Positions 14,049-40,569 of a DNA stretch of 64,000 bases are shown one piece after another. The notes under the pieces were generated by a model. The model had not been told where the DNA came from. It made no database searches and saw nothing but the letters and a program-made list of their open reading frames with translations. Made by a program: the position numbers and the translations under genes. This DNA comes from Buchnera aphidicola (Melanaphis sacchari). Its GTDB lineage: Bacteria; Pseudomonadota; Gammaproteobacteria; Enterobacterales; Enterobacteriaceae. How positions within the stretch are numbered: the stretch's first letter is position 1; each line of letters opens with the position of its first letter. The DNA lies in assembly GCF_003096055.1 (NCBI RefSeq), contig NZ_CP029161.1:562138-626137 (forward strand), given 5' to 3'.

Positions 14049-15079
14049 ATGCATAAAAAAAAACTTTTTACAAATCTTTAAAATATTTAAACACATTCAG
14101 AATTAATGTAACAGCAAAAAAAATTATTTTCGTTACAACAATTCAATTACTACTTGATATATGGAAAAAATACAGATTAAAAAACATTCCTTGTATTATT
14201 TTAGGCGAAGGTAGTAATGTTCTTTTTTTAGAAAATTATGAAGGAATAGTAATAATTAATAGGATTAAGGGAATTAAAATTAAAGAAAAAAAAAATTTTT
14301 GGTCGCTACATATTTTATCAGGAGAAAAATGGAGTGATTTAGTTAGTTATACATTACGAATTAAAATATTTGGATTAGAAAACTTAGCTTTAATACCAGG
14401 ATGCATAGGATCTGCTGCTATCCAAAATATCGGTGCTTATGGATTAGAATTTAAAGAAATTTGCGAATACGTTGATGTAATTTCATTAAAAAATGGAAAA
14501 ATTATAAGAATGCAAAATAAAGAATGTAATTTTTCTTATCGAAATAGTATTTTTAAAAATAAATATAATTATGGTTATGCGATCATTGCTGTTGGTATAA
14601 AAGTATCTAAAACCTGGAAACCTATTGTATCTTCTATATTCTTTAAAAAAGAAATTTTTAAAATAAATCCATATAAAATATACAATATAATATGTAAATT
14701 AAGAAAAAAAAAAATTCCAGATCCTAATAAATTAGGAAATGCTGGTAGCTTTTTTAAAAATCCTATTATTCATCCTAAAAAAGCAAAAAAGATTTTATTT
14801 TTATACAAAGATATGCCATATTTTCTTGAAAAAAATGGTTTTATAAAAATTCCTGCTGCATGGTTAATTGAACATTCTAATTTTAAAAATATTCATATTG
14901 GCGATGCAGCTATTTATCAAAAACAGAAACTTATACTAATCAATAAGAAAAAAGCTAAATCAAAAGATATTTTAAAATTAGCTATAAAAATACAAAAACA
15001 TGTGTTAAAGAAATTTTATATTCTTTTAAAACCAGAAGTAGATCTTATTAGTTCATCAGGAAAGATAAAATTATTATAA
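14049..15079 (+). CDS. murB: UDP-N-acetylenolpyruvoylglucosamine reductase MurB, frameshifted in an A9 run after the start codon
   Basis: MurB reduces the enolpyruvyl group to make UDP-N-acetylmuramate for peptidoglycan. From 14057 to the stop at 15079 one frame encodes a complete MurB: SLKYLNTF near the N-terminus, LGEGSNVLFLENYEG, LENLALIPGCIGSAAIQN, the FYR-type SYRNSIFK and NAGSFFKNP. The only ATG available (14049) is out of frame by one base: ATG CAT followed by nine A (14055-14063) reads into a stop after ten codons. Ten A would give M-H-K-K-K-T-F-Y-K-S-L-K and a 343-residue protein against 342 in E. coli. No in-frame ATG, GTG or TTG occurs before the conserved region. Polymerase slippage on poly(A) would restore it. 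Confidence 0.88.
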
Positions 15080-35873: not shown

Positions 35874-37703
35874 ATGTGTGGCATTGTTGCTGCAGTAACA
35901 AAACGCAATATAATTAATTTTCTTCTACAAAGTATCAAAAAGTTAGAATATCGAGGATACGATTCATCAGGATTGGCAGTAATAAATAAAAATAGTGATA
36001 TTGTCCGAATTCGATGCGTCGGAAAAGTTAACGTACTCTCTAAAAAAGTAAAGAAAAAAAAATTATTTGGAAATATTGGATTTGCTCATACTAGATGGGC
36101 TACACATGGGAAAATTTCCAAAGAAAATACGCATCCTCATATTTCTTCGAATATTGTCGTTGTTCATAATGGAATTATTGAAAATAGTTCAAAATTAAGA
36201 ATTTTATTAGAAAAAAAAGGATATACATTTAATTCTGATACAGACACTGAAGTTATTGCTCATTTATTGCATTTAGAACAAAGTAAAAAAGGTCTCTCTC
36301 TTTTAAAAACAGTTCAAAAAAGTATATTACAATTGAATGGCAATTATAGTATGGTCGTCATGGATGCTAAAAATGCATCTAAACTAATAGCAGTCCGTTC
36401 TGGCAGTCCTTTAGTGATTGGATTAGGCATAAAAGAAAACTTTATAGCTTCTGATCAAATTGCATTACTAAGTTCTACAAAACGTTTTATATATTTAGAA
36501 GAAGGTGACATAGCAATAGTAAAAGCAAAAAAAGTTAATATTTTCAATAAAGACGGAGTCATAATTGAAAGAGATGAAATTAAGTCTAATGTAAAATATA
36601 AATCTGTAAGTAAAGGAAAATATAAACATTATATGGAAAAAGAAATATATGAACAACCTTTATCTATTCAAAAAACTTTAAACAACCGTATAAAAGAAGA
36701 TAAAACTATACATTTTTCAGAATTAAGTCCAAAAGAAGAAAATTTATTTTTAAAAGCAGAACATATTCAAATAGTCGCTTGTGGCACTTCCTATCATGCA
36801 GCTTTAGTATCCAAGTATTGGTTTGAATCTCTTGCCGACATTCCATGTGATGTTGAAATAGCTTCCGAGTTTTCTTCAAGAAAACTCGCAATAAGAAAAA
36901 ATAGTTTCTTTATTACTTTATCACAATCTGGAGAGACTGCTGATACATTAGAAGCTTTGAGAATATCTAAAAAACTAGGATATTTAGGCAATCTTACTAT
37001 ATGTAATATGAAAGGATCATCATTAGTTAAAGAATCTGATTGTTGCCTATCAACAGAAGCAGGCATAGAAATAGGTGTTGCATCAACAAAATCATTTACT
37101 GCGCAATTAACTGTCTTATTAATGTTGATAACAAAAATAATGCATTTAAAAAGAAAAAACATTATGATTGCAAAAAAAATTGTAAAAAGTTTACATTACT
37201 TACCTAGCAAAATTAAAAAAATTTTTAAAAAAAATACATTAATAGAAAAAGTAGCTAATAATTTATATCGTAAAAAAAACATACTATTTTTAGGTCGAGG
37301 AAGTCAATATCCTATTGCTTTGGAAGGTGCTCTAAAAGTCAAAGAAATCTCTTATATTCACGCTGAAGCGTATCCATCAGGTGAACTAAAACACGGCCCT
37401 TTAGCATTGATTGATAAAAATATGCCTGTTATTATCATAGCTCCAAATGATTCGTTAATTGAAAAAACAAAAAAAAGTATTCAAGAAATATCTGCAAGAG
37501 AAGGAAAAATTTATGTTCTTTCAGACAAAGAAGTAAATTTAGAAAACAATATAAATTTTATTAAAATACCGTATATTGAAGAAATTATTGCTCCTATCCT
37601 TTATATAGTGCCGTTACAACTATTTTCCTATTACATAGCACTAAAAAAAGGAAAAAATATTGATCAACCTAGAAATCTTGCAAAATCTGTTACAGTAGAA
37701 TAA
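35874..37703 (+). CDS. glmS: Glutamine--fructose-6-phosphate aminotransferase
   Basis: GlmS produces glucosamine-6-phosphate. The glutaminase domain starts MCGIVAAV, with the catalytic cysteine exposed once methionine is removed, and has [11 protein letters not shown] and NGIIEN. Two SIS domains follow ([36 protein letters not shown]), and the C-terminus ends [11 protein letters not shown]. Length is 609 residues as in E. coli. I see no sign of the small-RNA control known in E. coli. Confidence 0.98.
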
Positions 37704-40000: not shown

Positions 40001-40569
40001 ATGCACAATTCTTTTTTTAAAAAAAACGGAAAAATTTATATTATTTCTGGAAAATTAAAAGGGCAAAAATTATCTTTTAAAAATAATTTAAAAATACGCC
40101 CAACGACTAATCGAATACGCGAAACTCTTTTTAGTTGGTTATCTCAAAAAATTAAAAATGCCCGCTGTCTTGATTGTTTTTCGGGAAGCGGCGCATTAGG
40201 AATAGAGGCTATATCTCGATACGCTTCCTTTGTAACATTTCTAGAAATAAAAAAAAAACAATAATTACATTAAAAAAAAACATAAAAAAATTAAATATAT
40301 CTAATTTAGAAATTATACATACAAATACTTTATATTGGCTGAAAAAAAATGGAACTCCATATGATATAATCTTTATAGATCCACCATATTATCAAGATTT
40401 AACAAATAAAACTATTTTGTTATTAAAAAATAAATGGATCAAAAAAAATTCGTTTATTTATATCGAAAAAGAGAAAAAAAAATCATTAAATATACCATAT
40501 AACTGGATTTTATATAAAAAAAAAATTACTAATCAATTAGAATGTTACCTATATATTTTTAATGAATAA
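40001..40569 (+). CDS. rsmD: 16S rRNA m2G966 methyltransferase RsmD, frameshifted in an A10 run
   Basis: RsmD methylates G966 of 16S rRNA. The first frame (40001-40264) encodes IRPTTNRIRETLFSWL-like sequence and the SAM motif LDCFSGSGALGIEA; the second (to 40569) continues with KNGTPYDIIFIDPPYYQ, which contains the catalytic DPPY. The frames meet in ten A at 40249-40258. As written the first frame stops six bases later; eleven A would join FLEIKKK to TIITLKKN and give 189 residues against 198 in E. coli, aligned without gaps at the junction. Slippage on poly(A) could restore the protein. ftsY lies divergent, as in E. coli. Confidence 0.9.

Follow-up and report, generated by a model that had tools for sequence, protein, structure and literature searches.

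Frameshifts in poly(A) tracts that are rescued by polymerase slippage have been described in Buchnera and Blochmannia (Tamas et al., 2008; Wernegreen et al., 2010; both as reported in the accessible parts of PMC5009743, PMC3017870, PMC4389277 and PMC6260861). Slippage has been reported for Buchnera mur genes with runs of ten A (Tamas et al., 2008, as cited in reviews) and for the Buchnera of R. padi (PMC3164680), and the available text of PMC5009743 states that it corrects 12–50% of the transcripts of frameshifted endosymbiont genes, including cell-wall genes of an aphid symbiont. Single-base insertions in A/T runs are given as the main type of transcript insertion in Buchnera (PMC5574713, in the part available).

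In Buchnera, murF, murE and mraY have also been noted to carry homopolymeric frameshifts, Table 1 of the same study giving 18 in Buchnera Sg, and those of murF were read as four independent inactivations (accessible part of PMC3164680). In 2022, murC, murE and murF were scored as lost in the Buchnera of the Aphidini after frameshifted coding sequences had been removed; loss and new adaptations were inferred, and in the Buchnera of R. maidis a D-Ala probe was incorporated into cell walls (accessible part of PMC9116674). The R. maidis Buchnera assembly is described as polished with PacBio and Illumina reads (PMC6451198, in the part available). An A-run also serves as the slippery sequence in programmed -1 ribosomal frameshifting of the dnaX type (mentioned in the accessible part of PMC5009743).

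The murB gene studied here lies in a stretch of 64,000 nucleotides of the genome of Buchnera aphidicola from Melanaphis sacchari (the window; all positions are those of this stretch). It resembles the Tamas/Wernegreen type in that the frame is shifted once, within an A-run, while the gene is open elsewhere, in being a Buchnera mur gene and in the purifying selection on its out-of-frame part. It differs in that the run occupies codons 3–5, right after the start, and in that the gene is murB. Frameshifts of that type are kept between species; here the murB offset occurs in four of 35 genomes, with repeated and single origin separated by 3 versus 4 changes. The pathway and the kind of lesion are those of PMC3164680, whereas with the 35 genomes used here the out-of-frame state of murF is that of the majority (29), at one site, and an out-of-frame root is the cheaper one. 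The genes and the clade, R. maidis included, are those of PMC9116674, but here the genes are present and conserved, with one frame break each in the affected genomes of the clade. Unlike the dnaX type, murB has no stimulatory structure in the window's organism, and its break lies at the start and not inside the gene. The accessible literature on Buchnera with murB, murF frameshift, peptidoglycan or slippage, that is, the literature outside subscription papers, held no account of a murB start offset and none tying the 'lost' mur genes of the Aphidini to slippage.

Results

The window belongs to a genome of 637,486 bases in three contigs, the nearest relatives of which are Buchnera genomes. The original prediction placed murB one base out of frame at a run of nine A beside its start codon; direct reading confirmed this (Table 1), and the feature proved larger in extent than noted. 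A single CAT stands between the ATG and the run. The frame opened by the ATG had been said to stop at once, and an early stop is real, but ten codons are read before it is reached. The MurB frame itself, predicted to be unbroken for over 330 codons, is free of stops throughout and bounded upstream by an in-frame TAA (14054–14056), and the prediction that ten A would give a protein of 343 residues is right by count. Both Pfam domains scored above cut-off (FAD_binding_4, 65.4 bits; MurB_C, 87.4 bits), and E. coli MurB (1mbb) and the window's MurB aligned over residues 7–338 (E = 1.7e-99). The N-terminal residues had also been expected to align: this holds for E. coli from its Ser4 onwards, but the lysine-rich N-terminus shows likeness to Buchnera relatives only.

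Table 1. Features of the murB locus, in window coordinates.
Feature	Position	Strand	Remarks
Start codon (ATG) of murB, the only plausible one	14049–14051	+	Sequence reading; the out-of-frame reading of ten codons ends at TAA 14079–14081 (feature 14049..14081)
Run of nine A, proposed slippage site	14055–14063	+	The MurB frame would be reached with one further A or by a single -1 ribosomal step
MurB reading frame, 340 codons, without a start codon of its own	14057–15079	+	FAD_binding_4 and MurB_C domains
A10 run within murB, in frame here	14286–14295	+	Equivalent place out of frame in G012, G026 and G053
A11 run within murB, in frame here	14704–14714	+	Sequence reading

A start-codon scan found no ATG, GTG or TTG in the MurB frame before codon 152, and no ATT, ATC, ATA or CTG upstream of the conserved SLK..NTF motif; within 90 nt upstream of the conserved S codon, the ATG at 14049 is the sole ATG, GTG or TTG. 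An alternative murB start was rejected, none being in frame ahead of the conserved motif. A start-adjacent A-run of this kind escapes annotation, as a caller that relies on start codons would open murB at an internal ATG (189 aa). A second copy of murB was likewise considered and rejected, the MurB_C family match being single in the whole genome. Between 13500 and 15900, Rfam recognized four tRNAs downstream and nothing else; promoter matches near murB numbered 15, about what chance predicts (14.2), and the search for a terminator near the gene gave nothing.

Runs of nine A are nothing unusual here. A count over the 54 gene-like ORFs of the window gave 38 distinct coding runs of at least nine A, 37 of which are in frame, the remaining one being a break in rsmD; what sets murB apart is the frame and not the run. 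Odd starts were flagged at nine of the 62 window loci, eight of which were read as antisense ORFs or as genes with a start present, leaving murB. One internal break was found in a real gene of the window, namely a gene of PF03602, which we take to be the RsmD family (40001–40569, + strand); it is split at an A10 run (40249–40258) and needs +1. The rsmD of G001 carries a break of its own at a different site. A wider comparison of 64–68 kb in five genomes gave three clear breaks outside the mur genes, in the rsmD of the window's organism (G000 in the genome comparison), the rsmD of G001 and a hydrolase-family gene of G030. It also gave a candidate partial break in G030 at 37160 and listed short ORFs in G010. 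An apparent N-terminal break of rpoC was rejected, as this gene starts with GTG.

The genus set comprised 36 genomes, 35 of which contain murB, and the start was read in all 35. An in-frame ATG opens the gene in 31. In the other four, the window genome (A9), G008 (A10), G026 (A10) and G010 (A11), the sole nearby ATG is out of frame by one and the same offset, lying 26 nt before the conserved Ser codon, and no in-frame start precedes the conserved motif. On a tree of rpoB, nusG, rplK, rplA and rplJ, a quick one with seven open forks, these four occupy three places within one clade of 14 genomes. The clade was inferred to be the tribe Aphidini from the position inside it of G001, taken as the Buchnera of S. 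graminum, and of G008 (642,929 bp), taken as that of R. maidis. The offset requires 3 changes if it arose three times and 4 if it arose once in an ancestor and was later reverted, so that by one change the offset is more likely to be repeated than to be inherited from the base of the clade; shuffled labels gave a mean of 3.87 changes, with 3 or fewer in 12.8% of shuffles. A start run of at least nine A occurs in 17 genomes and is out of frame in four of six inside the clade versus none of 11 outside it (Fisher p = 0.006, uncorrected for kinship).

Further breaks were found within murB: one at an A10 run near codons 78–80 in G012, G026 and G053, one near codon 217 in G065 and one near codon 42 in G041. 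G053, G065 and G041 belong to other genera of the family and have reduced genomes, with murB breaks at A10, A10 and A12, respectively, all needing +1. Altogether, all nine genome-sites of poly(A) frameshift in murB need +1, that is, one added base. In the family-wide search for murB, 105 of 119 genomes matched, and 11 of these, all small, were inspected around the gene. The murB frame of G040 lacks its first 42 residues, and that of G063, a genome 49% complete, is in four pieces. No match to murB or mraY was obtained in searches of G025, where a fetched metF stretch ended short of the murB place; this may be a natural case of true pathway loss.

mraY was located in 35 of the 36 genus genomes, and the dcw clusters of these 35 were fetched and ten genes mapped in each. 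They hold 58 frame changes, 55 of which need +1; the exceptions, with the opposite step, are murF of G000, murE of G019 and ddlB of G012. In the window's organism, murC and murE (both at A10) need +1 as murB does, and murF (A14) needs -1 or +2. Across the genomes, murF is the gene most often affected, being out of frame in 29 of 35 (30 events), in all 29 at a single place around codon 250, where the A-run is 9–14 long and an adjoining T-run or second A-run is often an alternative candidate. murC is out of frame in ten, always at the run at codon 100, murE in eight, at several runs, and ddlB in seven; mraY, murD and ftsW are each broken in one genome, and ftsI, murG and ftsA in none of the 35 clusters. 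In G008, each of murB, murC, murD, murE and murF is broken once. The ddlB of G030, taken as the Buchnera of A. pisum Tokyo, has its break at A11, near the ddlB breaks of G006, G011, G021 and G032.

Broken gene-genomes numbered 61 of 280 for mur genes against one of 420 for the other genes tested, and events per tract of at least nine A were 63 of 433 against one of 241; the control set includes very constrained genes (rpoB and ribosomal genes), the start events of murB were entered manually, and a few events lie outside such tracts. Stops were present in nine of 408 aligned pieces, none of them beside a break (the 30 codons next to each break being excluded), and three of these nine pieces are mur genes counted in frame (murC of G012, murC of G014 and murF of G005).

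Selection was estimated as dN/dS by NG86 counting, as distinct from likelihood. For murB it was 0.27–0.36 in four pairs of offset genomes, and the neighbouring metF gave 0.35–0.43 there (89 codons being the basis of two of these values); for G008–G010, pN was 0.093 against a pS of 0.242. Five in-frame pairs gave 0.10–0.32 for murB, so that the offset pairs lie above most of them. Under neutrality about 90 stop-making changes would be expected per substitution per site, or about nine stops at 0.1 substitutions per site; the four offset murB frames contain none. The prediction that murB had not decayed is supported both by purifying selection and by the same offset in four of 35 genomes.

Purifying selection was also seen on the out-of-frame downstream parts of murF, murC and murE. 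After its break, murF had a dN/dS of 0.08–0.37 in 11 out-of-frame pairs against 0.18–0.19 in two in-frame pairs; murD, murG and mraY gave 0.11–0.31 over the same 13 pairs, although murD of G008 and mraY of G001 carry breaks of their own. In eight of the 11 out-of-frame pairs, the part of murF after the break had a higher dN/dS than the part before it. Because of this, and of the higher values in the offset murB pairs, some relaxation is possible in the mur genes of out-of-frame lineages.

By parsimony, an out-of-frame root for murF costs 6 changes and an in-frame one 8. The in-frame state of murF, however, turns up in six genomes with the widest scatter that the tree allows (6 changes; shuffled mean 5.67), so that the data agree equally well with frequent switching and with an old offset followed by repeated repair. 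For murC the in-frame root is the cheaper (6 changes against 7), suggesting that this gene has broken repeatedly at a single run.

Discussion

The murB of this Buchnera is probably a living gene, its start offset by the length of an A-run and its transcripts rescued by polymerase slippage. RNA polymerase would slip in the A-run, a minority of transcripts would gain one A and yield full-length MurB, and the remainder would give a peptide of ten residues. The same arrangement would apply to murC and murE of this organism, and to murF with a different offset. Rescue by slippage, as originally proposed, is supported by the recurrence of the offset, the purifying selection on the body of the gene, the lack of an alternative start and the same state of murC, murE and murF. 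On these grounds we infer that the cell produces MurB and that RNA polymerase, more than the ribosome, accounts for the step; the case is probably a further instance of the known poly(A) slippage kind, found in murB and at the start. Several points count against this reading. A run of nine A is rather short, and slippage would be expected as well in the in-frame A10 and A11 runs later in murB; a deletion bias in the DNA, with homopolymer contraction, or undercalling would give the same +1 direction. In the pea-aphid Buchnera, moreover, no frame-restoring transcript errors were found, according to the part of PMC5574713 available, which counts against rescue.

Restoration of the frame by ribosomal -1 frameshifting on the A-run (an A_AAA_AAN heptamer with slipping tRNA-Lys) instead of by the polymerase is unlikely. 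A slippery heptamer, A_AAA_AAA, does stand in the zero frame of murB at 14057–14063, and the required direction fits all nine murB events and 55 of the 58 dcw events. No stimulatory hairpin, however, follows the tract in the window's organism (14064–14123: -0.6 kcal/mol, z = +1.04); of three other stretches that were folded, the one from G008 forms a modest hairpin that lies further downstream (z = -2.16, matched in 7 of 200 shuffles). The murF of the window's organism, with its A14 run, needs the opposite step, which slippage on a long run can supply but -1 shifting cannot, and the published Buchnera cases are described as transcriptional in the accessible sources. Least probable is an error of sequencing or assembly in a genome that truly has ten A. 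Homopolymers are error prone, undercalling would yield the same direction, and the rsmD of the same window is likewise broken at an A10 run, but of the 38 coding runs of at least nine A in gene-like ORFs of the window 37 keep the frame, the A10 run inside murB keeps it too, and the offset is seen again in three other genomes, one of which (G008, taken as the R. maidis Buchnera) was polished with PacBio and Illumina reads.

It is also quite improbable that these are early pseudogenes, in which relaxed constraint on the peptidoglycan pathway has allowed poly(A) deletions in murB, murC, murE and murF as a first step of loss, with no rescue. The concentration of frame breaks in mur genes would agree with this, as would G025 with its lack of murB and mraY matches, the reported disappearance of nearly the whole pathway in most other subfamilies of aphids (PMC9116674, in the part available), the apparently repeated rather than ancestral breaks of murC and murB, and the slight rise of dN/dS in out-of-frame pairs. 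Against it, the out-of-frame parts have dN/dS values well under 1 that fall inside or close to the span seen for mur genes and lineages in frame, stops occur in only nine of 408 pieces and never beside a break, 29 of 35 genomes have murF out of frame and the out-of-frame root is the cheaper (6 versus 8 changes), and the R. maidis Buchnera has cell walls (PMC9116674, same part). The recurrence of the offset and the purifying selection on murB are compatible neither with a sequencing error in one genome nor with a gene that died long ago. The offset in the window genome may nevertheless be too young for decay to show, since parsimony slightly favours three separate origins.

The comparison raises the question whether frame breaks that recur in this way represent damage that is tolerated or a means of control. 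It is conceivable, though rather doubtful, that out-of-frame poly(A) tracts throttle the synthesis of lipid II in Buchnera, as a shared device under selection: with murB, murC, murE, murF and ddlB each one base off in many lineages, only slipped transcripts would give enzyme, which would lower and jointly tune the output of the cell wall. The 'lost' mur genes of the Aphidini would then be expressed, and the R. maidis Buchnera could have a wall without need of new enzymes.

A pathway scored as broken after filtering, in a symbiont in which walls are seen (accessible part of PMC9116674), has been an apparent paradox, and it becomes a testable prediction here: the genes are present, conserved and one step off, nearly always in the same direction. 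Because murB and several out-of-frame cell-wall genes are otherwise intact, their proteins are probably still made. The sequence evidence suggests that slippage at A-runs is what still makes MurB and the other out-of-frame cell-wall proteins, and that out-of-frame mur genes should not be scored as lost.
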